Assembly: GCA_017532085.1 (NCBI GenBank)
Contig: JAFXJT010000017.1
Span: forward strand, 1-57,168
Length of the DNA stretch: 57,168 nucleotides
Direction of reading: 5' to 3'
DNA from: Oscillospiraceae bacterium
GTDB taxonomy: Bacteria > Bacillota > Clostridia > Oscillospirales > Ruminococcaceae
A program made the translations under genes and the position numbers. Position 1 is the stretch's first letter; every line of letters begins with the position of its first letter. The notes under the pieces are model-generated. The model did not search any database. It was given only the letters and a program-made list of their open reading frames with translations, and had not been told where the DNA came from. Positions 6,382 through 47,256 of this stretch are shown piece by piece.

Positions 6382-8805
6382 ATGAGCCACAGTTTTATCA
6401 AACGAGGTCTTGCATTTATGACCTCCTGCCTGTTGGTGTCAGCAGGCATCGCTGCACAACCTGAGGGGGTGCGTGCAGCTGCCAACATCATCTCGAACTC
6501 TACGTTCGATTCCAGTGCCTATGACTGGGCAATCTACACAGAAAGCGGCGGCAGTGCTACCCTTTCTACCGAAAACGGCAAACTGGCTATGAAAATTTCA
6601 AATGTCGGTTCTGTCACTTATGCTGCACAGCTGTATTACGATATCGTGCCGCTCTATCAGAACGGTGTGTATCATCTCAGCTATGAAATCTCTTGTTCAC
6701 AGAATCGTTTTGTAGAAGCTATGCTTCAGCAGAACGGCGGCACCTACCAGGCCTATACCTGGAAAGGTCTTGATCTGACCTCTACTCCACAAAAGGTGGA
6801 TTACACCTTTACAATGACTGCGGATACCGATATCATGGCAAAGTTCGTGTTTAACTGCGGTAAACAGGAGAAGGACAGCGCTCTGCAGCAGCACACCATC
6901 TATCTCGATAATGTTGTGCTGGAGCTTGTGGATGACAGCGGCGTGAAGTATGATTCCTTTATGCCCTATGAACCTTCCATCATGACCGATCAGGTCGGTT
7001 ATCGTCCCAATGGCCAGAAGATCGCCGTATTCCGTGATGTGACTTCGGAAACCTCGTTCTCTGTGGTCAATGCCACAACCAAGCAAACCGTTTATACCGG
7101 TGATCTTTATGGAAAAACCCAGAATTCTTCCGCTAATGAGACCGATTATCTCGGTGATTTCTCCAGCGTAACCACACCGGGTACTTATTACATCACTTGC
7201 GGCAATCTGGATCCTTCCTATTCCTTTGTGATTGACGATACTGTATACGATAAGATGCTGGATGATTCCATCAGAATGCTGTATCTCCAGCGCTGCGGTA
7301 CCGCAGTTCAGGATTCTAAATTTGGCCATGTCGCCTGCCATAACTCTATGGCTACTGTATATGGCACATCGCAGAAGATTGATGTCAGCGGCGGCTGGCA
7401 CGATGCAGGCGATTACGGCAGATACATCGTACCTGCTGCAAAATCCATTGCCGATCTGCTGTTTGCATATCAAAAGAATCCTTCTCTTTACAGCGACAGC
7501 ATTGGAATTCCCGAAAGCGGCAACGGCGTGCCGGACATTCTGGATGAAGTTCGCTTTGAACTGGAATGGATGCTGAAAATGCAGGCACAAAACGGCGGTG
7601 TATATCACAAGGTTTCCTGTGCTTCCTTCCCCGGCTATATCATGCCTGAAAATGAGACCGATGAACTGATCGTAACCCCTGTTTCTACAACAGCAACCGC
7701 AGATTTCTGTGCATCTATGGCTATGGCTTATGAATTCTATAAGGATATCGACGGCGGCTTTGCACAGACTTGTCTCGATGCTGCCAAAAAAGCTTGGGGC
7801 TTCCTGCAGCAGAATCCCAATTTCATTTTCCAAAATCCTGCCGGTATCGTTACCGGTGAATATGGCGACAAGACCGATGCGGATGAGCGTTATTGGGCTG
7901 CCGCACAGATGTATCGCGCAACCGGTGATGCTGCTTATCTGAACGCTTTGCAAAGCATGAGCGCAAAAACCGGTCTGGATTGGGCAACTGTCGGTGATTA
8001 CGGCAACATTGCTCTGGTAACCATGAACGGCATTGATACCAACTCCAATGTGTACAGCAATGCAAAATCCGCACTGCTTCGTCAGGCAGATTCCTTCGCA
8101 ACTGCCAGCAAGAACAGTCCTTATGGCGTATCCATTAACGACTTCAACTGGGGCAGCAATATGACCGTTGCCAATGCCGGTATCGTTTTGGCGGTAGCGT
8201 ATGATCTGACCGGCGATACCAAGTATTTCGACACTGCAGAAGCCAATCTGCATTATCTGCTGGGCCGTAACCCCAATGCAACTTGCTATGTAACCGGTTA
8301 TGGTACCGTTGCTCCCAAGAATCCTCACCACAGACCCTCTATGGCAAAGAACGAAGCCATGATCGGTATGCTGGTCGGCGGTGTCAACTCCGACTTGGAA
8401 GACAGTGCTGCAAAGGCTTATCTGAGCTCTGCTCCTCCTGCAAAGTGCTATGTAGATAATTGGGAAAGCTACTCTACCAATGAAATCACGATTTATTGGA
8501 ACTCTCCGCTGACTTATCTGCTGGCTCTGACTGCTGAAGCCGAACCTCCTGTAGTTCCCCCCGTGGATCCTCCTGTCAGCAACGTTACACCCGGCGATGT
8601 CAACTGTGACGGCGTCATCAAGATTGATGATGTGGTGCTCATGAATCGCTATATCGGTGAGGACACCAGCATTCAAATCACCTCTGACGGCGTGCGCAAT
8701 GCAAACTGCGATGGCAAACCCAATGTCAATGCAGATGATGCAAGCCATCTGTTGTCCTATTTGGCAGGTCTGATCAATGCGGATCAGTTGATTCCTGCAG
8801 AATAA
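6382..8805 (+). CDS. Cellulosomal GH9 endoglucanase (CBM4-like, Ig-like, GH9, dockerin)
   Basis: An 807-residue secreted cellulase that hydrolyses beta-1,4-glucan and should dock to a scaffoldin. Order: signal peptide 1-32; CBM4/9-like module about 33-185; N-terminal Ig-like domain of GH9 enzymes about 197-285 (YEPSIMTDQVGYRP); GH9 (alpha/alpha)6 barrel about 288-715; a proline-rich linker; type-I dockerin about 737-800 with two Ca loops (DVNCDGVIKIDD and NANCDGKPNVNADD). The catalytic pair Asp341/Asp344 lies in HDAGDYG, the histidine-containing NPHHRPS motif is present, and the acid Glu701 is in STNEITIYWN. The ribosome binding site is GAGAGGG. All hallmarks are intact; only the substrate range within beta-glucans is open. 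Confidence 0.95.
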   Translation: MSHSFIKRGLAFMTSCLLVSAGIAAQPEGVRAAANIISNSTFDSSAYDWAIYTESGGSATLSTENGKLAMKISNVGSVTYAAQLYYDIVPLYQNGVYHLSYEISCSQNRFVEAMLQQNGGTYQAYTWKGLDLTSTPQKVDYTFTMTADTDIMAKFVFNCGKQEKDSALQQHTIYLDNVVLELVDDSGVKYDSFMPYEPSIMTDQVGYRPNGQKIAVFRDVTSETSFSVVNATTKQTVYTGDLYGKTQNSSANETDYLGDFSSVTTPGTYYITCGNLDPSYSFVIDDTVYDKMLDDSIRMLYLQRCGTAVQDSKFGHVACHNSMATVYGTSQKIDVSGGWHDAGDYGRYIVPAAKSIADLLFAYQKNPSLYSDSIGIPESGNGVPDILDEVRFELEWMLKMQAQNGGVYHKVSCASFPGYIMPENETDELIVTPVSTTATADFCASMAMAYEFYKDIDGGFAQTCLDAAKKAWGFLQQNPNFIFQNPAGIVTGEYGDKTDADERYWAAAQMYRATGDAAYLNALQSMSAKTGLDWATVGDYGNIALVTMNGIDTNSNVYSNAKSALLRQADSFATASKNSPYGVSINDFNWGSNMTVANAGIVLAVAYDLTGDTKYFDTAEANLHYLLGRNPNATCYVTGYGTVAPKNPHHRPSMAKNEAMIGMLVGGVNSDLEDSAAKAYLSSAPPAKCYVDNWESYSTNEITIYWNSPLTYLLALTAEAEPPVVPPVDPPVSNVTPGDVNCDGVIKIDDVVLMNRYIGEDTSIQITSDGVRNANCDGKPNVNADDASHLLSYLAGLINADQLIPAE

Positions 8806-11424: not shown

Positions 11425-12462
11425 TCAAAGCAGAGCAGCCTCAATCCCAAGCACCCCATCCGGGATCTGTGGATGATCGTCTCCCCACACCACCGAATAC
11501 AAACGACTGCCATAATGCACGGTTTTCATACGGTCAAGCGCTTTGCATAACGGATTGTTTTCAAATCCACCCCATAGCAGCAATGCAAAATCAGTTTTTG
11601 CGGCAACTGTTCGCAGAAAATCCGAGCACAGCTTTGGATCTTGATTCCGGATGTATAAATAGGAAACCACACCATAGTGAATGCAATGACCTGCCTTGGG
11701 AAATGCCGGATATCCCAAAAGCTTCGTCGGCAATTTTGACAGCACCCGATACATTCCGCCATAGCTGCAAAGCTTATATTGCTTATAAGCTTGCTGATCG
11801 CATACAAAGCAGCAGGCAATGATTTCGCCCTGCTCTCTGAGACAGAAAAAGGTAGTATCGCCAAACCCCTTGCAATCATACGCCACAGGTGTATGGCTTT
11901 GCTTTGCAAAATGCGATTGCATCAATGCGCCAAAGCCTTCTGTATGATTCGTTTCCAAAGAGAGTATTTCCTTGCCTCCATGAAAGCAATAGGTCGTATA
12001 ATGCCCCAGATAGTGGTATTTCGGCATATTCCGATGCGGCTTTTCCAGCAGTGCAATGGCTTCGGCATTATCATCCAGAATGGTCGTATAGCAATAGGTG
12101 CAATCTGCAATGTGCTCCCGCAAAAACTGATATGCCTTCGCAATAAAGCCGATTCTCTTGCGGTAATCAAAATGGATTTTGAGGCCTGTCAGATAGGCGC
12201 ACAGTTCTTCTTTGCCGTTGACATATTCTGTACGCACCACAGCGCCGCCCACAGCAGCAGTAACACCATTGCTGTTGTCAATCACCACCATAATATGATT
12301 GCGCTCTCCATCCGCACAAAAGGATGCATAGGGCGAAGGATTGCGAAGATACTGCACACTGATACCGCCTTGGAAGCTTCCGCTTTCAAAAATCGCACGA
12401 ATGCCGGCATCATCAGAGGGCTCGGCAAAGCGCAGCGTATAGCGATCATTTTGGAAGTTCAT
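11425..12462 (-). CDS. GNAT-like protein, last gene of the radical SAM core operon
   Basis: A 345-residue protein that reads as a GNAT-type acyltransferase or acyltransferase-like protein. The N-terminal half has RFAEPSDDAGIRAIFES, a central strand run (AAVGGAVVRTEYV) and a YRKRIGFIAKAYQFL helix in place of the classical acetyl-CoA loop; the C-terminal half repeats a related fold (SYLYIRNQDP). The acyl donor and acceptor are unknown. The start at 12462 is preceded by GGAGAG and overlaps the upstream radical SAM gene by 17 bases, implying translational coupling. The family call is by fold pattern only; a FemX/aminoacyl transferase relative is an alternative. Confidence 0.65.
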   Translation of the reverse strand: MNFQNDRYTLRFAEPSDDAGIRAIFESGSFQGGISVQYLRNPSPYASFCADGERNHIMVVIDNSNGVTAAVGGAVVRTEYVNGKEELCAYLTGLKIHFDYRKRIGFIAKAYQFLREHIADCTYCYTTILDDNAEAIALLEKPHRNMPKYHYLGHYTTYCFHGGKEILSLETNHTEGFGALMQSHFAKQSHTPVAYDCKGFGDTTFFCLREQGEIIACCFVCDQQAYKQYKLCSYGGMYRVLSKLPTKLLGYPAFPKAGHCIHYGVVSYLYIRNQDPKLCSDFLRTVAAKTDFALLLWGGFENNPLCKALDRMKTVHYGSRLYSVVWGDDHPQIPDGVLGIEAALL

Positions 12463-13777
12463 CAAGATTCTCTCCAATCGGAACATGCATTTTCTGATCC
12501 ACTTCCTCACCAAGCCGCAGATTCATACCCCAGAACAATCCCCACATCAGAGGGCTGGTTCTGCCTAACGAAGCAAAGCCTCGGCTCAGCACGGTTTTGG
12601 CAGAGGAAAACTCTTTTCTTGCCTCCCGACAAAGCATACTCATGCGCTCTGCCGAAATCCGCTTCGGATGAAAGGCAAGCTCACCGTAATGATAGCCCTC
12701 TGCAAGCCACCATTTGTCATAGATCAAACGCTGCTCTGCCTGTAAGCGATCATATAACGCCGTGTTGGGAAATGGCAGCAGATGATTGAAGGCTGCGGTA
12801 TAGAACTTATGCTTTTTGGCAAATTCCAATGCCTCATGCACTGTGCTTTCATCATCATTATCATAGCCAAATACAAAGGTTGCATAAATGCCGATGCCTG
12901 CATCATGAATACGCTTCACCAGTTCATCACGCTCACCTAGGGCATAATTGAAAGACTTATTCATCTGTTTGAGATTCTCTTTGTTCAGACTCTCAAAACC
13001 GATCAGAATGATCTCACAGCCGCTTTGCTTCATTGCCTTGAGCATAGCTTCATCCTTTGCCATAGAGAGTGTTCCCTGCCCTGCCCATTTAATCCCAAGG
13101 GGCTTGATGTCCTCAAATAACTGCATAGCATTTTTACGGTCTGCCACCAGATTGTCATCCACAAGGAAGGTATATCGATGCGAAGCGTTTTTGATGTCAT
13201 CCACGATCAGCCGATGATCCCTGCAATGATATTTGCTGCAGTAAAACTTGGAAATCGAACAGAACTCACAGCTATGACAGCAGCCTCTTCCCGTTTCCAC
13301 CAAGGATACCGGCAAATATCCTTTGCCGGTAAAAATGCTTTTGTCCGGCTGCACATCATAAGAGCCCACTCCGCCTTGATAGCGCTTTTGCAGAGTATGC
13401 TTTCGTGCATCCTGCAGCATGGTACCCCACACTGTTTCTGCATTGCCGACAATGATACTATCGCAATATAAAGCCGCCTCATCCGGACAAAGCGTTACAT
13501 GATAGCCGCCCATTACCACGGGAATTCCCCGTGCACGGAATTTGGCTGCAATCTGATAGCTGCGCTTTGCAGTATAGGTTTCCACAGTAATGCAAACCAG
13601 ATCCGTTGTTGTGTTATAATCAATCAGCTCCAAACGATCGTCAAAGAGCTCGGTTTCAATATCGGATGGTGTCATGGCTTTGAGCACTGCTATGGTTAAA
13701 GGCTCCATTTTCCATGTGCCGATATATTTTTTTCCGGGTTTCTTGCCAATCGCCGGAAGAATCCATGTAATTTTCAT
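12446..13777 (-). CDS. Cobalamin-binding-type radical SAM enzyme (operon copy E)
   Basis: A 443-residue enzyme with an N-terminal B12-binding-like Rossmann domain (about 1-130; MEPLTIAVLKAMTP, VVMGGYHVTLCPDE) and a radical SAM barrel (about 150-370) whose CX3CX2C motif is Cys166, Cys170 and Cys173. The strand motif FLVDDNLV and the IGFESLNKEN motif match the other five copies in the window. The DxHxxG cobalamin-ligand motif is not seen, as in several B12-radical SAM classes. Such enzymes catalyse methylation, ring closure or C-C bond formation at unreactive carbons. The substrate is unknown. It follows copy D after 17 bases. Confidence 0.88.
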   Translation of the reverse strand: MKITWILPAIGKKPGKKYIGTWKMEPLTIAVLKAMTPSDIETELFDDRLELIDYNTTTDLVCITVETYTAKRSYQIAAKFRARGIPVVMGGYHVTLCPDEAALYCDSIIVGNAETVWGTMLQDARKHTLQKRYQGGVGSYDVQPDKSIFTGKGYLPVSLVETGRGCCHSCEFCSISKFYCSKYHCRDHRLIVDDIKNASHRYTFLVDDNLVADRKNAMQLFEDIKPLGIKWAGQGTLSMAKDEAMLKAMKQSGCEIILIGFESLNKENLKQMNKSFNYALGERDELVKRIHDAGIGIYATFVFGYDNDDESTVHEALEFAKKHKFYTAAFNHLLPFPNTALYDRLQAEQRLIYDKWWLAEGYHYGELAFHPKRISAERMSMLCREARKEFSSAKTVLSRGFASLGRTSPLMWGLFWGMNLRLGEEVDQKMHVPIGENLDELPK

Positions 13778-13794
13778 AGAAGCTGCCCCTTTGG

Positions 13795-15129
13795 TTACAG
13801 AATCGGAATATCGGAATTGTCACACATCACCTCTCGCGTGAATTTGTGCCATTTGTCTGCATATCCCTTATAGCCCAAATTCAACGGCAGAGAAAGCCAA
13901 GGACTATGTGTAAAAGGTGCCAGACGCTTCATAATATTGCCGGTGGCATAAGTGGCACGCCATGCACGATCGGTACCTGCCTCAAGCTGCTCCTTGGTCA
14001 TGCGCTTTGGGGTAAATACACAATGCTGCACATCATACATCGCCCAGTTACGCTCAATGATTCTGCCTTCGCGCTCCAATTGACGGTAATATTCCGTCTG
14101 CGGAAAAGGCGTTAAGATCGAAAACCGAGGCAGATCAATCTTAGCTTTGATGATCATTTCAACAGTACGGTCAAAGACACTTTCATCCTCTTCGTCTCCG
14201 CCAAAGGCAAAGCAGCCCTGCACCAGAATACCGTTATCATGCAGTTTTTCCATCAAGGTTACATAGCTATCTACCTTGTTGACACCCTTGTGAATATACT
14301 GCTGCGATTCCTGTGTAATGGATTCAAACCCGATCAGAAGTCCCTTGCAGCCGCTTTTGCGGAACACCGTCATCAGCTCATCATCAATTCCCACTGAGGA
14401 GGTTACAAGTCCCAGCCACATGATCTTTAGTGGGATCAACGCCGTAAACAGCTCTATGGCATAGGCACGATCGGTGATCAGATTTACATCGGGGAAGGTA
14501 ACATGCTTGGTATGCAGTGCTTCAATTTCTGCCACCACTTCCTTCACGGGACGTTTGTAGACACATCTGCCAAATGCCGCCGGATAAGCGCAAAAGCTGC
14601 AGGTATGACAACAGCCGCGAATTGCCTCAACGGTTTTGGTAGTGATATATCGCTTCGAATTCAGCAGCTCCCGACGAGGTGTGGGACGACCTGCAATTGT
14701 AAAATCGCTGTTCTGATGATAAAACTTCTGATGACAGCCCTTTTTGTAATCATAAAGAAACTGTGGAAAGGTTTGCTCAGAAAAACCGGTGAATACCACA
14801 TCAGCATGCTGTGCCGCCTCCTGCGGCAGCATGGAGGGATGTACACCACCCATAAACACGGTTTTTCCCTTTTTCCGGAAATAATCTGCATAGGCATAAC
14901 ACCGAGGTGCTGTACCCGTAATACAGGTAATGCCGATCAGCTCTGCATCAATCTCCAGTGGTATTTTTTCAGCAGTTTCATCATAAATCACTACTTGTGC
15001 ATCCAGCTCCTCAGGTACCAGTGCGGCAAGTGTCGTAAGTGTCAAAGGCGCATAGTGCAACGATTTTCCAAAGCTGCCCGAATACCGATGCATTGCACCG
15101 GCAGGAGCAAGCAACGCAATTTTTAACAT
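13795..15129 (-). CDS. Cobalamin-binding-type radical SAM enzyme (operon copy D)
   Basis: 444 residues. The N-terminal B12-binding-like domain (VFMGGVHPSMLPQE) is followed by a radical SAM barrel with Cys173, Cys177 and Cys180 in the motif RGCCHTCSFC, then the family strands FPDVNLITD and LLIGFESITQES. It begins SFGKSLHYAPLTL, which resembles copy A (SNLFSYSSLTL), so A and D form one subtype and B, C and E (MKPLLFGIL/MEPLQLGIL type) another. The start overlaps the end of the amide-synthetase gene by 7 bases. The substrate is unknown. Confidence 0.88.
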   Translation of the reverse strand: MLKIALLAPAGAMHRYSGSFGKSLHYAPLTLTTLAALVPEELDAQVVIYDETAEKIPLEIDAELIGITCITGTAPRCYAYADYFRKKGKTVFMGGVHPSMLPQEAAQHADVVFTGFSEQTFPQFLYDYKKGCHQKFYHQNSDFTIAGRPTPRRELLNSKRYITTKTVEAIRGCCHTCSFCAYPAAFGRCVYKRPVKEVVAEIEALHTKHVTFPDVNLITDRAYAIELFTALIPLKIMWLGLVTSSVGIDDELMTVFRKSGCKGLLIGFESITQESQQYIHKGVNKVDSYVTLMEKLHDNGILVQGCFAFGGDEEDESVFDRTVEMIIKAKIDLPRFSILTPFPQTEYYRQLEREGRIIERNWAMYDVQHCVFTPKRMTKEQLEAGTDRAWRATYATGNIMKRLAPFTHSPWLSLPLNLGYKGYADKWHKFTREVMCDNSDIPIL

Positions 15130-16655
15130 GTGCGATTGTTCCTTTCCTTGCTGATTTCAAAGTATTGCTTCCATCCGCTGTATCTTGTCAGATAGGTCGG
15201 TTTGATATCACCGATCCGGATGCCTTCTTCCATCAGCCGTTTCAGATATCCCTCCTGCGGCTGCCCGCAGACCCGTACCACTTCAGCACAGGCAAGCTGT
15301 CCAAGCTGACGGCAATACTGATAATGATAGCTTTCACATAATGCCGCATCCAATTGCGCAGAGCAGACCTTTGGGGCATCGGTATAGAAACAATAACGAT
15401 TTCCCTCAGGCGCCAACAAACAAAAGTAATCTGTGATACCGAGATGTCGGCATACGGATTGTACAAAAGCCTCTGTCAGCTTTTCACCGTACAGATCCGA
15501 GCAGATCCCCCTGCGCCGTAAAAAGCGAATCCGAGGCGGCCGATTCGGTTCCGCTTCCAATACAGTAATCACATCTCCAAGACAATAGCGGTAGAAGCCG
15601 CCTCCTGTGGTGACAATCACCTCATATTCGCATCCCGGCTGCAAACGCTCTGCGGTCACAATTGTGTCATCTGCAAGACTGCGAAATTCAAAGAAATGCG
15701 AATAAAGACTCAATCTGCTGCCTTCCTCACCAATCAAGGGGAAGGATACAAAGCATTCCGTGGCAAGTAAGCCCTTCGGCTGAATTCTGACATTCGGAAA
15801 GCGTTTTATTACTCCGTGAATCTGATCTTGCGCACTGCCATCCGCCCAGCAGCTAATAAGCTTAAGCTGCGGAAATACACAGTCAAATCGTTGTTCCTTG
15901 ACTGCACTGATCTGCGATTGTGTCAGAACATCAGCAAGCTCTGCCGTATGTGCGCTGATGACATCACAGAGGATCGTCAATAATGTCGGATTCCACACAG
16001 AAATCAAGGTAAGCTCTTTGCATTGCAGCAATTGTCTGACCGTTTCCAGATAAAACGAATCCATGTCGGATACAAATTTTACAGAACCATCCACCGCAAA
16101 CAAGCGCCGCATGATCCCCTGCTCCAGAACGCCGAAATATTCAGCATCCTCCTCAAAACCAATCGGAATCCCCGCTGCCGTATAGCTTCTGCCGGCAGTC
16201 ACAGGCGTAATCGACCAATAGCTTTTTCCGGCACGCAGCCCTTCTACATGAGAATACAAATCATATAGCCACGGGCGTATGCCGCATTGAAACTCTCGTT
16301 TCAGTGCAGCGGTATAGGGAATCAGCTTTTTTCCACCCGATGATCCGCTGGTCAATTCAAATAGTTGGATGGGTTCTGCCGTCAAAACCTTTTCTTTGCC
16401 CTCAGCGGCTGCCTCCAGATATGGCGCATAATCCTCATAAACCGTAAGCGGTACACGCTCTGCATATTCCGCATAGCTTCCAATGCCGGAAAAGCCATAG
16501 GCTCTGCCATATACGGTATCCGCCTGCTTGCGCAATAATGTCAGCAGATATCGTTCCTGTACAGCACGCACATCACAGTCTGCCATAAAGCGTTTGTATT
16601 CTCTGTGATACAAGGCAAGACAGCAGCCGTTAAGCCATTTACACAGCAAACTCAT
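15123..16655 (-). CDS. GH3-auxin-type acyl-adenylate / acyl-acid amide synthetase
   Basis: A 510-residue member of the adenylate-forming family named after plant GH3 (auxin-responsive) proteins, not glycoside hydrolase family 3. It activates a carboxylic acid with ATP and usually joins it to an amine or amino acid. The nucleotide-binding loop ELTSGSSGGKKLIPYT (about residues 101-116) and the FYRYCLGDV motif are both present, and length fits the family. It lies in the middle of the radical SAM operon, overlapping the upstream GNAT gene by 4 bases and the downstream radical SAM gene by 7 bases. This suggests the pathway handles a free carboxylic acid that is conjugated. Acid and amine are unknown. 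Confidence 0.85.
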   Translation of the reverse strand: MSLLCKWLNGCCLALYHREYKRFMADCDVRAVQERYLLTLLRKQADTVYGRAYGFSGIGSYAEYAERVPLTVYEDYAPYLEAAAEGKEKVLTAEPIQLFELTSGSSGGKKLIPYTAALKREFQCGIRPWLYDLYSHVEGLRAGKSYWSITPVTAGRSYTAAGIPIGFEEDAEYFGVLEQGIMRRLFAVDGSVKFVSDMDSFYLETVRQLLQCKELTLISVWNPTLLTILCDVISAHTAELADVLTQSQISAVKEQRFDCVFPQLKLISCWADGSAQDQIHGVIKRFPNVRIQPKGLLATECFVSFPLIGEEGSRLSLYSHFFEFRSLADDTIVTAERLQPGCEYEVIVTTGGGFYRYCLGDVITVLEAEPNRPPRIRFLRRRGICSDLYGEKLTEAFVQSVCRHLGITDYFCLLAPEGNRYCFYTDAPKVCSAQLDAALCESYHYQYCRQLGQLACAEVVRVCGQPQEGYLKRLMEEGIRIGDIKPTYLTRYSGWKQYFEISKERNNRTC

Positions 16656-17350
16656 CGAAACAGCAGCTCGTGGGCATGCTTTCGCAGCAGTGCCTTGTCA
16701 ATCTTCGCAAGACAGACCAGATCATTGCCGATCAGATGGCCGGGATTCCGTTCACAGAAAAACGCCACATCCTTATTCTTCAGCTGTCGCACCCCGATCT
16801 CTGCTACGCCTTCTTTCAGCTTATCCTTCTGCGTCTTATATGCGATCACACCACTTTCGGGATCATAGGCATCCGGATAAAGCAAGGATGCATAGGCATC
16901 CATGATCCGTTTTGCATAAGGTGTGGTTTCCATACGATAATTCGGAAAAAACTCTGTCCAGAACAATGGCAGAATCCGATAGGTTTTATAGCCCTTGCAT
17001 ATCAAAAACCAATAGAACGCCTCATATTGCTCGGCAAAGGCAAACCAAAACTGCGCCCATACCCGAAACAGCTCCACATCGCCCCAATGATCCTTATGAA
17101 TGATGGTATCACCGGAAAACATCCCATGCACCGGTTTGCCATCCACAGACAGCGTCAGCACCTTCTGTGTGGTAAATCCTACCAAGCCATCGGTCTCGTG
17201 ATACAAGGCAAGGCAATAGTCCTTGTCGGCAAAATCACGTCGGAATACTTCCGGATCCGTGTGATCATAAAACTGTGCCATCAGCTGATACATGGTTTCT
17301 ATTTCTTGTTCCGAATATGCCGAGATCGGTTTGACGAATCCTTTCAGCAT
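16652..17350 (-). CDS. GNAT-like acyltransferase in the radical SAM operon
   Basis: A 232-residue protein with the pattern of the GNAT fold: an N-terminal helix pair (EQEIETMYQLMAQFYDH), a beta strand with GLVGFTTQKVLT, a FSGDTIIHKDHWGDVELFR segment where acetyl-CoA would bind, and the aromatic YWFLICKGYKTYRILPLFW. The substrate is unknown. Its start overlaps nothing upstream (6 bases after copy C) and its stop overlaps the amide synthetase start by 4 bases, so the two are probably made together and may act in sequence on an acyl or amide group. Confidence 0.65.
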   Translation of the reverse strand: MLKGFVKPISAYSEQEIETMYQLMAQFYDHTDPEVFRRDFADKDYCLALYHETDGLVGFTTQKVLTLSVDGKPVHGMFSGDTIIHKDHWGDVELFRVWAQFWFAFAEQYEAFYWFLICKGYKTYRILPLFWTEFFPNYRMETTPYAKRIMDAYASLLYPDAYDPESGVIAYKTQKDKLKEGVAEIGVRQLKNKDVAFFCERNPGHLIGNDLVCLAKIDKALLRKHAHELLFR

Positions 17351-17356
17351 GGTGCA

Positions 17357-18712
17357 TTACTCCTTTTCGGTCTTGGATGCTTCCAATCCAAAGCGCATTC
17401 CCTGCTTTTTGAACACCTCTTTGCGAAAGAGCGGATTGTAGATCAGATATGTCATAAAGCGATAGGGGGTACGCATATTGGTTCTTGGCTCCAGTGCACG
17501 CTTACAGATGGAACCAAGACTGTTAAATCGACGACGGCAATCAAACGAAATCTCCGTCAGCATCTCCGGCGTCATATTCTTCGGTACAATACTTGCATAA
17601 TTAAACCGATATTCCTCATGAAGCCACCATTTTCCATCATAAAGCAATCTGCCTTCACGCGAAAGCTTTTCATATAACGGTGTATTGGGATACGGCATCA
17701 GAATATTAAAGGCCGCAAAGGTAAATCGGTTCTTGATGGCAAAATCACAAGTTGCACGAATGGATTCCACCGTATCACCATCATGGCCCACGGTAAAGGC
17801 GGCCCATGTCTGCAAGCCCCATTTGCGCAGCTGCGCAATCTCAGAGCGATATTGCTCAAACGAGCCCTTTTTATTGGTGCCCTTATTCATCTCGGCAATG
17901 CAGTCCGATGAAATCGATTCAAATCCGATCACCAAACCAAGACAGCCGCTTTTCACCATCAGCTGCATCAGTTCCTTGTCACCAAGCATATCAATGCTGC
18001 CCTGACTCACCCATCGGATCTTCAAAGGAATCAATGCACGGAACAGCTCCTTTGCCTTTTCCCGATTGCAGACAATATTATCATCCACAAAGAATAACAG
18101 CTTTCGCTTCTGCGCCTTGATCTCAGCAACCACATCCTCCACCGGACGGCAATAATGATGCGCTTTGAAATAAACCGAGGAGGCGCAAAAATGACATCTG
18201 TGACTGCAGCCTCTGGAAAACTGCAGCAAAGTGATCGGCAAATAGCCCTTTCCCTCAAACAAATCACGACGAGGCATCACATTCATTTGCGGGCACTGCG
18301 GCTGTATCGCATCATAGCGAGGCTGCAAGCATCCGTTCTGCGCATCCGCAAGCATCTGCGCCCAAATCGGTTCCGCATCGCCCACCAGTACACAATCACA
18401 ATGCGCAGCAACCTCCTCCGGAATCAGCATGGCATGCATACCGCCCATGACGGTTTTGACTCCTCTGCGACGAAACTCTGCACTGATCTCATAGGCTCTG
18501 CGGGCAGTGAAGGTCTCCACCGTTATGGCAACCAAATCAGTGGGTGCATCGTAAGGAATTTCCTCCATACGATCATCATAAAGCACCACATCAATCTCCT
18601 TGGGCGTCAATCCTGCCAGAATGCCCAGCTGCAAAGGCTCCATGCGGCCTTCATCCACATAAAGACTATGCTCACGCCTGCCGATATTGGGTTTAATCAA
18701 CGTCAGATGCAT
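17357..18712 (-). CDS. Cobalamin-binding-type radical SAM enzyme (operon copy C)
   Basis: 451 residues: B12-binding-like domain (MEPLQLGILAGLTP, TVMGGMHAMLIPEE), radical SAM barrel with Cys169, Cys173 and Cys176 in SRGCSHRCHFCAS, FFVDDNIVCN and LVIGFESISSDC strands, and a basic C-terminal tail (FRKEVFKKQGMRFG) close to that of copy B. The start overlaps the stop of copy B by 20 bases. Copies B, C and E share the conserved DGD/DND turn and the KWWL...YRYGE/YRFNY segment near residue 350-370. The substrate is unknown. Confidence 0.88.
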   Translation of the reverse strand: MHLTLIKPNIGRREHSLYVDEGRMEPLQLGILAGLTPKEIDVVLYDDRMEEIPYDAPTDLVAITVETFTARRAYEISAEFRRRGVKTVMGGMHAMLIPEEVAAHCDCVLVGDAEPIWAQMLADAQNGCLQPRYDAIQPQCPQMNVMPRRDLFEGKGYLPITLLQFSRGCSHRCHFCASSVYFKAHHYCRPVEDVVAEIKAQKRKLLFFVDDNIVCNREKAKELFRALIPLKIRWVSQGSIDMLGDKELMQLMVKSGCLGLVIGFESISSDCIAEMNKGTNKKGSFEQYRSEIAQLRKWGLQTWAAFTVGHDGDTVESIRATCDFAIKNRFTFAAFNILMPYPNTPLYEKLSREGRLLYDGKWWLHEEYRFNYASIVPKNMTPEMLTEISFDCRRRFNSLGSICKRALEPRTNMRTPYRFMTYLIYNPLFRKEVFKKQGMRFGLEASKTEKE

Positions 18713-20009
18713 TCAGTATTCCTCCCAGTAGTTGGCCCTGCTTTTTGTGAATCTCCCGACGGGATATCAAATTTGCAAGCAAAAATACAACCAGATTCAT
18801 CGGACGAAGATGAATCGGATTCGCAAACAGCCGTTTGAGAATACAGCCCATGGAATAGTAATCCGTCCGCATTTTCAAACAGCCCTCCTGCAGCTGCAAT
18901 GGTGTCATGTGTTTCGGTTGATAGGCAGTCTCACCATAGCGATATTGATCCGAAAGCCACCATTTGCGATACAGCAGCCGACCTTCCTGTTCCATACGCT
19001 CATAGACACCCGTCCCCGGCATCGGAATCAGCGGATTGAAATTGGTCACTGCCATATGATTGCGTACTGCAAAATCATAGGTTTTTTGAAACACATCCAC
19101 CGAATCTCCGTCACAGCCCAGCACAAAAGTACCGTATATCAAAAGCTTATGGCGATATATCCGTTGAATGATATCTTCGTAATCAGCTGCGGTATTGGCC
19201 GCTTTATGCATTTCTCCCAAACTGTCCGTATTCAGGCTCTCAAAACCGATCAGCACCAGAAAACAGCCCGCTTTTTTCATCTCCGCAAGCAAGGTATCAT
19301 CCCTTGCCGCATCCATGCTGATCTGGCACGCCCATTTTTTCTTCAGCGGCGCAATGGCACGAAACAGCTCCAGCGCCGATTGCTTATCATAAAACAGATT
19401 ATCATCTACAAAAAAGAGAATCTTTTCCCTTGCTTGTTTCAGCTCTTGTACTATCATGGCTGCTGTTTTGCGCCGCACACAGCGATACATGGTTTTTATG
19501 GAGCAAAAATCACAGTGGAATTTGCAGCCTCGGGAAATCTGATATACGCCAATGCCAAAATACCGATGCCGATATACAGAGGAATCCTCCTGCAGCAGAG
19601 TAAGCGGTGCCGACTCATCGGAAATGTATTTTTTCTGCAGGCAGCCGTTTTCATAATCAGAAAGCATCCGCTGCCAGTTGCCTTCGGCATCGCCCACCAG
19701 TACACTATCCGCATAAGCAAGCATTTCATCTGCCATCACAGCAGCATGAAATCCGCCCATGACAATAATATTCTGATCGGTCTTATATTTTTGAGCCAGA
19801 AGATAGGCTCGCTTGGCCGTAAAAGTTTCGACCGAAAATGCAATGATATCTGCATGAATCACATCCGGCAAAGCCTCTGCCCGTTCATCAAGGAAGGTAA
19901 TGGTATGCTGCGAGGGCGTAAGGCTTTTAAGTATTCCAAACAGCAGCGGTTTCATGGCATCCGAACTAATATGTTCAAACATATTCAATCGTATTACGGT
20001 TATGTTCAC
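18693..20009 (-). CDS. Cobalamin-binding-type radical SAM enzyme (operon copy B)
   Basis: 438 residues: B12-binding-like domain (IIVMGGFHAAVMADE), then radical SAM barrel with Cys162, Cys166 and Cys169 in SRGCKFHCDFCS, FFVDDNLFYD and VLIGFESLNTDS strands, and a hydrophobic LVVFLLANLIS segment near residue 410 that could lie on a membrane. The start overlaps the end of copy A by 4 bases. The substrate is unknown. Confidence 0.88.
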   Translation of the reverse strand: MNITVIRLNMFEHISSDAMKPLLFGILKSLTPSQHTITFLDERAEALPDVIHADIIAFSVETFTAKRAYLLAQKYKTDQNIIVMGGFHAAVMADEMLAYADSVLVGDAEGNWQRMLSDYENGCLQKKYISDESAPLTLLQEDSSVYRHRYFGIGVYQISRGCKFHCDFCSIKTMYRCVRRKTAAMIVQELKQAREKILFFVDDNLFYDKQSALELFRAIAPLKKKWACQISMDAARDDTLLAEMKKAGCFLVLIGFESLNTDSLGEMHKAANTAADYEDIIQRIYRHKLLIYGTFVLGCDGDSVDVFQKTYDFAVRNHMAVTNFNPLIPMPGTGVYERMEQEGRLLYRKWWLSDQYRYGETAYQPKHMTPLQLQEGCLKMRTDYYSMGCILKRLFANPIHLRPMNLVVFLLANLISRREIHKKQGQLLGGILNASDVD

Positions 20010-21307
20010 TTTGGTTTCCTCTTATTGGCTCCTAAGAATTTGAATCCGATATTTGCTCCCAGCAAAATCCAATAATAAAGCTTTCCGCGCCACGGAGAAC
20101 GCCATGCACGACGAAATACTCTGCGCCATGTATAGGCTTTTTTCCATACGGTACGATAAATCTCCTCCAACCGTTCTGTGGTGATCTGCGCCGGTTCAAA
20201 CACTGCATGATGCTGTGTATAGCGATCCCACTCCTTGGTCAGAATTCTTCCGTTTTTTTCATATTCCTCAAATTGCTTGGTACCGGGATATGGTGTCAGA
20301 ATCGCAAAGCGACAAAGATCCAGCCCCAGCCGCTCCACACGCTCCGGCAGCGCCAGCAGCTCTTCTTCGGTATCGTGATCAAAGCCCAGCACAAAGCAGC
20401 CGTTGACAGCAATGCCATGGCTATGGATATTGGCAATGATCTCCTGATAGCGATCGGTTTCATAGAACTGTTTTCCAACACCGGACAGCGATTGCGTATT
20501 CAAAGATTCCAAACCAATGAGCACACCTCGACAGCCGCTGTCATATGCCGCCTGCATCAATACATGATCATATCCAAAATCTGCAGTCGCATTGCTGGCC
20601 CATAAAATCTTCAATGGCTTCAGCGCTTTCATCAATGCCAGAACATATTCCCGATTGCCAAAAAAATTCGGATCATAGAAAATAACCATTTTGGATCCCA
20701 GCGCACGAATCTCCTCCACAACCTGTTCCACCGGCCTCGGATCATTGCGCCACATCATTCGCATGGAACAATACTTGCAGGCATTCATACAGCCCCGATT
20801 CGCTACAATGCCGGGAATCCGCAGTTTTTTTCGCTTTGTGATTTTATCCCGCACAGGAAGCGGAAACTCTGCCGCACAAACATCAAAATCGCAATAGCGA
20901 GGCTTGGGACAGCCCTTTGCGAAATCCGAAAGAAAAGCAGGAATCGAATGCTCGGCAGGACCTTGTATCACTGTATCGCAATGCTCCGCTACTTCATCGG
21001 GCAATGCTGTGGCATGATAACCACCGCATACCACATAGGCACCCCGCTTGCGAAATTGCGCACAATGGCCATAGGCGGTAATGCTGGATGATGTCTCAAA
21101 AGAAATCATTACCAGATCATATTGCGTCCGATCATACTGTACCTTCTGTGAATTCTCATCGATGACATCCACCTGTTCAAACATCCCCTCAGGGATCAGA
21201 GCACAGATCGCTGCCAGAGTCAAGGAGGAATAAGAAAAAAGATTGGAAAACGCACCCCGGTATGAACGCTCACGAGCATTCCAGGCATGTATCAGCAATA
21301 GTTTCAA
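20006..21307 (-). CDS. Cobalamin-binding-type radical SAM enzyme (operon copy A, first gene)
   Basis: 433 residues starting with TTG at 21307, supported by AAAGGAGG 8 bases upstream. B12-binding-like domain (YVVCGGYHATALPDE), a radical SAM barrel with Cys173, Cys177 and Cys180 in NRGCMNACKYCS, the YDPNFFGN and VLIGLESLNTQS strands, and a C-terminal hydrophobic segment YYWILLGANIGFKFL. It is the promoter-proximal gene of the operon, with a consensus-like promoter just upstream. The substrate is unknown; the family includes lipid, pigment and antibiotic tailoring enzymes. Confidence 0.88.
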   Translation of the reverse strand: MKLLLIHAWNARERSYRGAFSNLFSYSSLTLAAICALIPEGMFEQVDVIDENSQKVQYDRTQYDLVMISFETSSSITAYGHCAQFRKRGAYVVCGGYHATALPDEVAEHCDTVIQGPAEHSIPAFLSDFAKGCPKPRYCDFDVCAAEFPLPVRDKITKRKKLRIPGIVANRGCMNACKYCSMRMMWRNDPRPVEQVVEEIRALGSKMVIFYDPNFFGNREYVLALMKALKPLKILWASNATADFGYDHVLMQAAYDSGCRGVLIGLESLNTQSLSGVGKQFYETDRYQEIIANIHSHGIAVNGCFVLGFDHDTEEELLALPERVERLGLDLCRFAILTPYPGTKQFEEYEKNGRILTKEWDRYTQHHAVFEPAQITTERLEEIYRTVWKKAYTWRRVFRRAWRSPWRGKLYYWILLGANIGFKFLGANKRKPK

Positions 21308-21423: not shown

Positions 21424-22557
21424 TTACGGAATATTCCCAAAAACCGTTTCCGTTTCATACAGCAGCATCATACGCTGCCACAGCGTCAGATCAATTCCAT
21501 TGACAACACCGTTGCCATCCACATCATAATTCTGCTGCGGCGTTTCCATCCCCAGCAGATAGTCGCATAATCCGCTGCCAAACTCCGGCAATGCCGCAGA
21601 TGGATAAAACACGGCTCCCAGCTCCTGCCGATCGGTATTGCACGCCGGTAACGCTGCTGTGCTGCTGCCATCTGAGTAACACAGATCATAGTTGCCGTGT
21701 TCACTGCTGCTGTACAGCAGACCTTCTGTCATCGGAAACGGATCGGAACAGTTATAGGCTTCACTTTGATGAGGCAGCATCACAGCTGCTCCATCGGCTG
21801 TCAAACGCATAATGCAGTCATTATGCAATTGATCGGAATACCATTTTGTAAAATACAATCCATCGTTTCCTACAACAGGATAATATGCAGTCACACCATC
21901 CTCAGCATAAATCACACGCTGTTCGCCGGATGCCGGTTTGAACTGCCAAATGGAAGAAAGACCATCCTGCTGCAATGCATAATAAACGGAATTGCCGTCT
22001 GCAGCATAATAAGGCATGGATTCTTCGGCATCGGAATCTGTAAGCATTGTCACCGTTTGGGTATACAGATCCATCTCTGCCAGATCATAGACAAACGAGT
22101 TGTTTTCATGGCTCCAGCGGCCCCGTTTGAATACAATTTTCATGCCATCGGGCGAGAATTTCGGATCTTCATTCCGATATCCGGAGTGTTGTGTCAGATT
22201 GATCGTTTTGCCGGTCAGCAAATTACAGCGATACAAATCCCATTCATCGGCGGCTGCATCTATGGCCATAAACACCAGATCAAAGGGATGGCTCCCAAAA
22301 TCTGCATTCATGGCATGAATAAAATCTCCTTGCAGCGGTGTCATCGTGCCATCCGGGAGCTGCACATATTGTAAGCTGTCCATGGCTTCATAGGATGTAT
22401 AGCTGTGCCATGCCAGATACCCTTGCGGCAGCACTGCAGAGGCTGCCGCAGCTTTGCAATACAGTGTTTCCTTGTTCGGTATCCCATCCTTGCCTAAAAA
22501 CAGACTTGCGCAAAGCACAACACCACTCAGAAACAGACCGATTCCCTTCTTGTCCAT
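21424..22557 (-). CDS. Secreted TolB-like beta-propeller with C-terminal dockerin-like repeat
   Basis: A 377-residue exported protein. A signal-type hydrophobic segment (residues 6-21) is followed by propeller blades of the TolB/WD40-like type (e.g. HSGYRNEDPKFSPDGMKIVF, near residue 125) that usually bind proteins or glycans. The C-terminus carries one dockerin-like Ca loop, DVDGNGVVNGIDLTLWQRM (about 344-362), instead of the usual two. Enzymatic motifs were not seen. It lies 36 bases after the lipoprotein gene and probably shares its promoter at 23605-23633. It may be a non-catalytic cellulosome subunit; this is inference. Confidence 0.8.
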   Translation of the reverse strand: MDKKGIGLFLSGVVLCASLFLGKDGIPNKETLYCKAAAASAVLPQGYLAWHSYTSYEAMDSLQYVQLPDGTMTPLQGDFIHAMNADFGSHPFDLVFMAIDAAADEWDLYRCNLLTGKTINLTQHSGYRNEDPKFSPDGMKIVFKRGRWSHENNSFVYDLAEMDLYTQTVTMLTDSDAEESMPYYAADGNSVYYALQQDGLSSIWQFKPASGEQRVIYAEDGVTAYYPVVGNDGLYFTKWYSDQLHNDCIMRLTADGAAVMLPHQSEAYNCSDPFPMTEGLLYSSSEHGNYDLCYSDGSSTAALPACNTDRQELGAVFYPSAALPEFGSGLCDYLLGMETPQQNYDVDGNGVVNGIDLTLWQRMMLLYETETVFGNIP

Positions 22558-45915: not shown

Positions 45916-47256
45916 ATGTATATCAAACTGATTCAACCCAAAATGCAAAAACGGCCTATGGATACCGATATCAAGATCCACATGGCGCCGCCGCTTGGTC
46001 TGCTTACCATTGTAAACCTGCTGCGGGATGATCACAAAGTCTCGCTGGAGAATGAAAACATCCAACCGATTTGTTATGACGATCATCCTGATCTCGTGGG
46101 AATCTCGGTAACGGTGGATACGCTGCCCCGTGCGATTCACATCGCAAGACGATTCCGCAATCAGGGCATCAAGGTGGTAGCAGGTGGGATTCACATTACA
46201 ACAGCAAGCCATACCATCCCCAAAAACTGTTTCGATGCCCTTTGCATCGGTGCTGCTGAAGGTACTTGGCCACAGATCATCCGGGATATGCAAAACGGTA
46301 CACTAAAGCCTTGCTATCGCTGTCACAAACCGCTTCGCAGTGAGGAGATCGTTTCTCCTGCCTATGATTTTCTAAGACCCAGCGAATACCTGTACTGCAA
46401 TGTAGTGCATACCAGCAGAGGCTGTCCGTTTCGCTGCGATTTCTGCTATAACAGCGGAAACGATCAGCCCTATGTCAATCGCAGAATCGCAGATGTCATA
46501 CGGGATATCCATGCAGTACGCTCTAAGCATATTATGTTTATTGATGATAACTTTGCCGGTAATCCCAAATGGACAAAACAATTTCTCAGAGCAATCATAC
46601 CCTTACACATCAAATGGAATGCAGCGGTCTCCATCAACGCTGCTTTTGATACTGAACTGTTGGATCTGATGAAGCAAAGCGGCTGCCAAGGCTTATTCAT
46701 CGGCTTTGAAAGCATTCACCCCGATTCCATCCGCCGTGTTCATAAGGTACAAAATCATACCCATCAGTACGAAAAAGCAATCAAAGCCATTCATGATCGC
46801 GGCATTATGATCAATGCAAGCTTTGTATTCGGTCTGGACGGCGATACCAAAGATACTTTTCAGGACACACTCGACTGGATTGTGAAGCATAAAATCGAAA
46901 CCGTAACCTCCCATATTCTGACTCCCTATCCCGGTACTGCACTATATGACAGAATGCTTCGGGAGCACCGTATTCTGACCCATGATCTCTCCCGTTACAA
47001 TACGGCTCATGTGGTATTCAAACCCGCCAACATGACCCCAAAAGAGCTGTATCATGGTTATCTTCAGCTCTATGAACAGATTTACAGTCTTAAAAACATC
47101 GCACGCCGTCTGCCGGATACCCTCGCACAATGGCCCGCTTATCTGATGTTCAATTTACTGTATCGCAAATATGGTGCCTTTACTGATTTTCTCTGCAAAC
47201 GGATTTCCTATCAGCGCATCGGAATCTGGGGAGAAGCATTATCCCGTTATATTTAA
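45916..47256 (+). CDS. Cobalamin-binding-type radical SAM enzyme (copy F, separate locus)
   Basis: 446 residues: B12-binding-like domain (KVVAGGIHITTASH), radical SAM barrel with Cys170, Cys174 and Cys177 in SRGCPFRCDFCYN, the FIDDNFAGN strand, LFIGFESIHPDS and a DGDTKDTF turn. It belongs to the same family as the five operon copies 25-35 kb to the left, but is transcribed alone behind its own promoter and operator-like repeat and is followed by a terminator. The ribosome binding site is AAAGGAG. It may act in the same pathway under separate control; this is inference. Confidence 0.88.
   Translation: MYIKLIQPKMQKRPMDTDIKIHMAPPLGLLTIVNLLRDDHKVSLENENIQPICYDDHPDLVGISVTVDTLPRAIHIARRFRNQGIKVVAGGIHITTASHTIPKNCFDALCIGAAEGTWPQIIRDMQNGTLKPCYRCHKPLRSEEIVSPAYDFLRPSEYLYCNVVHTSRGCPFRCDFCYNSGNDQPYVNRRIADVIRDIHAVRSKHIMFIDDNFAGNPKWTKQFLRAIIPLHIKWNAAVSINAAFDTELLDLMKQSGCQGLFIGFESIHPDSIRRVHKVQNHTHQYEKAIKAIHDRGIMINASFVFGLDGDTKDTFQDTLDWIVKHKIETVTSHILTPYPGTALYDRMLREHRILTHDLSRYNTAHVVFKPANMTPKELYHGYLQLYEQIYSLKNIARRLPDTLAQWPAYLMFNLLYRKYGAFTDFLCKRISYQRIGIWGEALSRYI

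Follow-up and report, generated by a model that had tools for sequence, protein, structure and literature searches.

Which product would call for five related B12-type radical S-adenosylmethionine (SAM) enzymes in one operon? The question is raised by contig JAFXJT010000017.1 of an Oscillospiraceae bacterium (assembly GCA_017532085.1). The window analyzed here is this entire contig (C76) of 57,168 nucleotides, part of a 1.98-Mb draft genome that is 83% complete. From position 21307 to 11425, its minus strand carries eight genes in the order A-B-C-G1-GH3-D-E-G2, where A to E are the radical SAM genes, GH3 encodes an acyl-acid amide synthetase family member, and G1 and G2 encode two further proteins. 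To our knowledge, it is unusual for a single pathway to include five paralogous radical SAM enzymes of the B12 type. We found that this gene set recurs in other bacteria in defined combinations, and we conclude that the pathway is real, patchily distributed and modular. The product is probably a heavily remodelled acyl-amide, perhaps lipid-like.

The initial annotation, made from the sequence alone, had described eight tightly spaced genes on one strand, and the positions of the open reading frames agree with this. Neighboring genes overlap by 4 (A/B), 20 (B/C), 4 (G1/GH3), 7 (GH3/D) and 17 bases (E/G2) or are separated by 6 (C/G1) and 17 bases (D/E). The start of G2 was taken as the ATG at 12462, which has GGAG ahead of it, and not as the TTG at 12513. 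Visual inspection showed a ribosome-site-like sequence ahead of seven of the eight genes, GH3 being the exception.

The initial annotation had proposed a search of genome neighborhoods for the same set, and this search found it in other genera, in other families and in a second phylum. G1, GH3 and D occur together in 16 clusters, of which 14 are in the phylum of the window (the window itself, G181, G085, G354, G328, G557, G690, G734, G810, G884, G965, G978, G981 and G985), one is in a Clostridiaceae draft genome (L021, found by a scan of species genomes) and one is on a Citrobacter plasmid. Two candidates were left out of this count: G273 (E 8.9e-4, two stops), and G1012, in which a G1 fragment lies at a contig end with no partner visible. 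G1 adjoins GH3 in all 16 clusters, and D directly follows GH3 in 15 of them; in G690, D lies in the same short cluster. A failure of the gene order to persist in related genomes had been named as an argument against a shared pathway. Much of the order does recur, although the four clusters in which all eight genes are visible (the window, G085, L021 and Citrobacter) show three different orders. These results support the earlier proposal of a multi-step pathway with amide conjugation. No description of this gene set was found in the literature searched, which mostly did not extend to subscription papers, and to that extent the earlier statement that no such pathway had been described stands.

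The occurrence of the set is patchy. A full-length GH3 relative (57-62%) was present in 3 of 197 genomes of the family and in 4 of 21 of the genus, with the window genome counted in both; weaker GH3 matches in nine genomes of the family search (E 5e-17 to 7e-4) and in G968 and G982 of the genus search were kept outside the count. Strong matches to a G1 profile were obtained in 4 of 391 genomes of the class and 5 of 398 of the phylum, the window genome included. In the class of G734, 3 of 46 genomes gave G1 matches, one of them a fragment, and the three genomes of the class of G690 gave no further match.

The cluster of Citrobacter portucalensis lies on plasmid NZ_CP134684.1 (L038, 11418-23513), which is of a mobilizable IncFIB/IncFII type. 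It contains all eight genes as well as genes for a PAP2 phosphatase (32.6 bits; cut-off 27.2), a fatty-acid desaturase (71.1 bits) and a small protein without a family. Sequence conservation across the phyla is highest for C, with 59% identity to the Citrobacter copy, compared with 24-45% for the other genes. A close copy of the cluster was found in none of 20,395 Escherichia coli records, and the plasmid collection returned only its own record. An empty-site test with the flanking genes was dropped, the matches being too remote (best 55% over part and 50% over the length).

The 16 clusters reveal a modular composition: the unit G1-GH3-D-E-G2 recurs, B comes only with C and C only with B, and A is optional. 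G965 and G981 have A-B-C-G1-GH3-D up to a contig end. The core is accompanied by A without B and C in G978, G985 (A truncated by the contig start) and G734 (on two contigs), and by B and C without A in G181, G354, G557 (E-G2 on another contig) and G884 (the contig ends in E), while G328, G810 and G690 have the core only. Thus, 10 clusters have both B and C and 6 have neither, and no cluster shows one of the two alone; A is present in 9 clusters and lacking in 7. The contigs of G884, G965 and G981 break off before any G2 is reached, and E of G965 and G981 was judged from matches on other contigs.

The absences were also examined genome-wide. In the six genomes without B and C (G328, G810, G690, G734, G978 and G985), the best matches in a search with C were E copies at 349-424 bits, whereas true C copies score about 640 or more in the eight searched genomes having one. 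B is also lacking in these six genomes, because all other matches above 100 bits in the C search were D or A. Similarly, a search with A in G181, G354, G557, G884, G328, G810 and G690 gave D copies as the best matches (245-283 bits). Some of the genomes are incomplete (G978 76%, G328 88%, G985 88%), yet the G978 locus runs from A directly into G1. In G354, ABC-transporter-type genes (L031, 2036-3580; by eye) lie immediately downstream of G2 in the same orientation and may encode an exporter.

We then compared the radical SAM proteins themselves. On the minus strand, A (20006-21307, TTG start) encodes 433 residues, B (18693-20009, GTG start) 438, C (17357-18712) 451, D (13795-15129) 444 and E (12446-13777) 443. 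In a tree of 58 rows, they fall into five groups with support of 100/99 (A), 100/98 (B), 100/100 (C), 97/93 (E) and, more weakly, 88/60 (D). The two subtypes recognized in the initial annotation, A/D and B/C/E, were recovered with support of 100/99 and 100/100. The fifth genes of Citrobacter and G734 have D as their best BLAST match, yet they had been assigned to A ahead of the count of the groups, as they stood with A in an earlier tree of 44 rows (99/98). E of G965 and G981 is absent from the 58-row tree, and a lone radical SAM gene of Paraclostridium bifermentans, unaccompanied by the other genes, was omitted from it. In G734, a gene of the SPASM radical SAM type (L034, 269-1540) lies directly ahead of the A ortholog. 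As to the six copies mentioned earlier, a sixth B12-type radical SAM gene does exist in the window (45916-47256, plus strand; 35-36% identity to C), but it is separate from the operon and falls outside all five groups; possible counterparts are found in G965 and G981 (229 and 222 bits to C).

All five proteins match the Radical_SAM domain of Pfam (E 2.9e-12 to 8.5e-17), and the CX3CX2C motif reported for all of them is indeed there; among the 57 radical SAM rows from the window and 16 fetched loci, it is present in 55, and the other two are fragments. When A to E were compared with NCBIfam models, a comparison that does not extend to the membrane-spanning lipid synthases (MSS/Tes), none reached a cut-off, the models of the HpnJ, BchE, AprD4, PhpK, HpnR, ladderane, BzaD and MgmA types included. 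The highest score of any window copy was 96.3 bits for C against the PhpK model (cut-off 600); HpnJ gave 80-88 bits of 577.6, BchE 63-84 of 481.35 and the ladderane type (TIGR04072) 49-71 of 360. Within that comparison, then, the copies do not fall into a characterized family, an outcome that would have spoken against the initial annotation. The nearest solved structures, with D alone and with a 15-row profile, are 6fd2 and 9ccb; the former, titled apramycin biosynthetic oxidoreductase 4, is presumably AprD4. The latter is named in a paper on MgmA (PMC11796369). A role in defense was considered and dropped, as PADLOC gave weak matches of B and D to one model only (5.8e-5 and 2.8e-5).

The GH3 gene (15123-16655, minus strand) encodes 510 residues and contains the GH3 N-terminal, middle and C-terminal domains (PF03321, PF23571 and PF23572) at 131.5, 53 and 25.3 bits, each above its cut-off of 23.6. 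Comparison with published motifs (PMC12493201) showed that nucleotide motif I (TSGSSGGKK) and motif III (GFYRYCLGD) are kept, and that motif II (YGSSE type) is represented at its likely place only by T299-E300. In 13 aligned GH3 sequences, G104, S105, R356 and D361 are invariant, as are both residues of the partial motif II. The protein is therefore a member of the acyl-acid amide synthetase family, as first annotated, and it would be expected to form an amide. Matches to solved structures were plant GH3 proteins, the best being GH3.8 (E 2.6e-19). The nearest NCBIfam model is OlsH (NF052613), against which the window protein scored 51.9 bits (cut-off 620), the Citrobacter relative 42.5 and that of G690 72.6; the Acinetobacter relative gave no match. 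According to the report on OlsH, the enzyme joins fatty acids and ornithine using adenosine triphosphate to yield N-acyl ornithine, further bacterial homologs may produce different N-acyl amino acids, and N-acyl amino acid compounds are known from gut Clostridia (PMC12493201).

G2 (11425-12462, minus strand; 345 residues) and G1 (16652-17350, minus strand; 232 residues) had both been annotated as GNAT-like, and this holds better for the former. Neither window protein matched a Pfam family at E 0.001. In the G2 family, PF00583 was found in 5 of 10 members and PF13527 in 4 of 10 (E up to 1; best 6.4e-8). The window G2 scored 19.2 bits, just under the GNAT cut-off of 20.7, which its Citrobacter ortholog passes at 21.0, and the G2 profile aligned with three generic GNATs at an hhalign probability of 48 (P 1.8e-4). 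By these similarities, G2 belongs to a GNAT-like family and is a probable acyltransferase. In the G1 family, PF00583 was found in 1 of 15 members (E 0.041), and no solved structure matched G1 at E under 0.1. The G1 and G2 profiles aligned with each other at a probability of 80 (P 1.5e-5), compared with 0.1 and 2.4 in controls against the GH3 and radical SAM profiles, which is a hint that G1 is possibly a divergent GNAT. The G2 of G810 (L036, 14522-15427) has only 301 residues and lacks the C-terminal part of the other G2 proteins. A viral origin was considered for G1, and no relative was found in viral contigs.

A G1-like gene was also found in 12 records of the plasmid collection, from Citrobacter, Burkholderia, Acinetobacter (two) and Azospirillum (eight). 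Four of these were examined: Citrobacter, Burkholderia, one Acinetobacter and one Azospirillum. In the Azospirillum record, no GH3 match lies within 12 kb of the G1-like gene. The Burkholderia and Acinetobacter records contain a remote G1-GH3-G2 trio; the trio appears separable from the radical SAM genes, because these relatives come without them. In Burkholderia arboris NZ_CP101525.1 (L039, 10449-22043), the trio genes are on both strands, beside two desaturases, the first of which carries a PAP2-like part (19.9 bits, under the cut-off), and a Rieske protein; a Metal_hydrol protein with a weak AurF match and a flavin adenine dinucleotide monooxygenase are encoded in the same region. The desaturases and the Rieske protein favor an aliphatic substrate, without proving it, and suggest oxygen-using tailoring of a similar scaffold. 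In Acinetobacter baumannii NZ_CP064203.1 (L040, 6186-17894), the trio occurs with genes of the LuxR type and for an amidase, an outer-membrane efflux protein and SurE (Pfam), as well as with HlyD/MFS-type genes (by eye), and the region looks like a locus for acyl-amide production and export.

From these data, a pathway can be proposed. The substrate adenylated by the GH3 enzyme would be a carboxylic acid, most probably an aliphatic one such as a fatty acid, and its coupling partner an amine, for instance an amino acid. G2, and perhaps G1, would add or transfer a second acyl group. Afterwards or beforehand, the radical SAM enzymes would alter unactivated carbons of the chain by methylation, cyclization or C-C coupling, as their superfamily would predict. 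D and E would carry out the step shared by every producer, the B and C pair would add a second one, and A would contribute a third that is optional; this order and pairing of steps is inferred because of the observed co-occurrence of the genes. We consider the functional class, an acyl amide with radical tailoring, likely, and a lipid product to be an even bet, judging by the neighbors of the Citrobacter and Burkholderia genes and by OlsH being the nearest GH3 model, albeit far below its cut-off. Belief and doubt are about evenly balanced for the fuller statement that the operon is a modular biosynthetic unit making an acyl amide whose aliphatic part is tailored by radical chemistry. A broader view, which we hold only tentatively and regard as rather doubtful, is that G1-GH3-G2 forms a widespread scaffold for a new class of acyl amide with interchangeable modules, namely desaturases and a Rieske oxygenase in an aerobe versus the obligate radical SAM pairs D and E, then B and C, and optional A where no oxygen is required.

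Several observations weigh against the proposed acyl-amide pathway. The earlier claim of a B12-binding-like N-terminus is upheld by Pfam matches in all five radical SAM proteins (E 3e-5 to 6.8e-8). However, the curated cut-off is passed by D only (32.8 versus 32.1 bits), the other four scoring 24.3-28.4, and DxHxxG is absent from the first 130 residues of all 57 radical SAM rows, so B12 dependence is putative. The likeness to OlsH is slight, so ornithine is not implied as the substrate. A GNAT identity of G1, for which its own family offers the single Pfam match, is further called into question by its alignment with the three generic GNATs (probability 0.9, P 0.059). The trio relatives are remote, with identities of 21-22% for G2, 27-33% for GH3 and 30-35% for G1. 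On a Streptomyces plasmid, a polyketide cluster, presumably that of borrelidin, includes both a GH3 gene and a threonyl-tRNA ligase gene, and GH3 is not proof of a lipid because it also occurs in such a setting. Finally, no genes for an acyl carrier protein, fatty-acid synthase, desaturase or phosphatase were noticed in the listed flanks of the clusters of the window's phylum, which were inspected by eye and not by a profile search.

An alternative product is a non-lipid specialized metabolite, such as an antibiotic or signal that is the amide of an amino-acid- or polyketide-derived acid, with the GNATs serving in tailoring or self-protection. The patchy occurrence of GH3 and G1, the plasmid location in Citrobacter, the Streptomyces polyketide cluster and the efflux genes beside the Acinetobacter trio all agree with such a product; the desaturase and PAP2 genes at the Citrobacter cluster, the desaturases among the Burkholderia trio and the lack of an exporter or resistance gene inside the window operon do not, and we regard this explanation as possible but somewhat improbable. 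The appearance of HpnJ and ladderane-type models among the nearest curated models would instead suit the synthesis of membrane-spanning or cross-linked lipids, in which radical SAM enzymes would join acyl chains and GH3 would cap the carboxyl ends. The scores, from a comparison without the membrane-spanning lipid synthases themselves, are far under the cut-offs, and no clear membrane segment was found in the eight proteins of four clusters (the top 19-residue hydropathy, 1.8, lies in the interior of D), which makes this unlikely. A BchE-like modification of tetrapyrroles or cobamides, with amidation of side-chain carboxylates, draws on the BchE model being among the better matches, though its cut-off is far from reached; by eye, no tetrapyrrole gene was noticed beside the clusters, and the window contains no cobalamin riboswitch at Rfam gathering scores. 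We know of no such role for GH3 and GNAT proteins, and we consider this explanation very improbable.

Upstream of the operon, a promoter-like site (21369-21341, minus strand; TTGATT-17-TATAAT with TG before the -10) directly follows a terminator-like hairpin (21421-21401, minus strand) located 3' of the preceding gene (22557-21424). The single promoter assumed in the initial annotation thus has a well-placed candidate, but promoter- and terminator-like matches in the region are about as frequent as in shuffled sequences (19 versus 16.3 and 11 versus 9.5), which argues against an excess over chance. Around the operon, the proteins encoded at 819-2078, 6382-8805 and 21424-22557 contain dockerin-like repeats (by eye), and glycoside-hydrolase-like genes lie near these dockerin-like genes. 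The organism is perhaps a fiber degrader.

The natural combinations of the genes (core, core with A, core with B and C, and all) amount to ready-made intermediates, and each enzymatic step could be read separately by comparing hosts that carry the different sets. Should the product prove to be a lipid amide, these probably anaerobic bacteria would have a new membrane or signal molecule, and if the modular reading is true, the operon would represent an oxygen-free system for remodelling unactivated lipid carbons.

Among known systems, OlsH of planctomycetes, which makes N-acyl ornithine, resembles the window enzyme in being a bacterial GH3 protein for which amide formation is expected. It differs in that the window protein falls far below the OlsH cut-off and is encoded with GNAT-like and radical SAM genes, whereas OlsH has a partner hydrolase, OlsI. 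Plant GH3 proteins share all three GH3 domains with the window protein, which has 510 residues and low similarity to them. Enzymes of the HpnJ, BchE and AprD4 types have in common with A to E a B12-binding-like N-terminus and a radical SAM core with CX3CX2C, but the window proteins reach no NCBIfam cut-off and form five paralogs in one operon. Ladderane-type lipid synthesis suggests by analogy that a lipid could pass through several radical SAM steps; the window enzymes share its superfamily, whereas they remain well short of its model and no fatty-acid synthase gene was noticed here.

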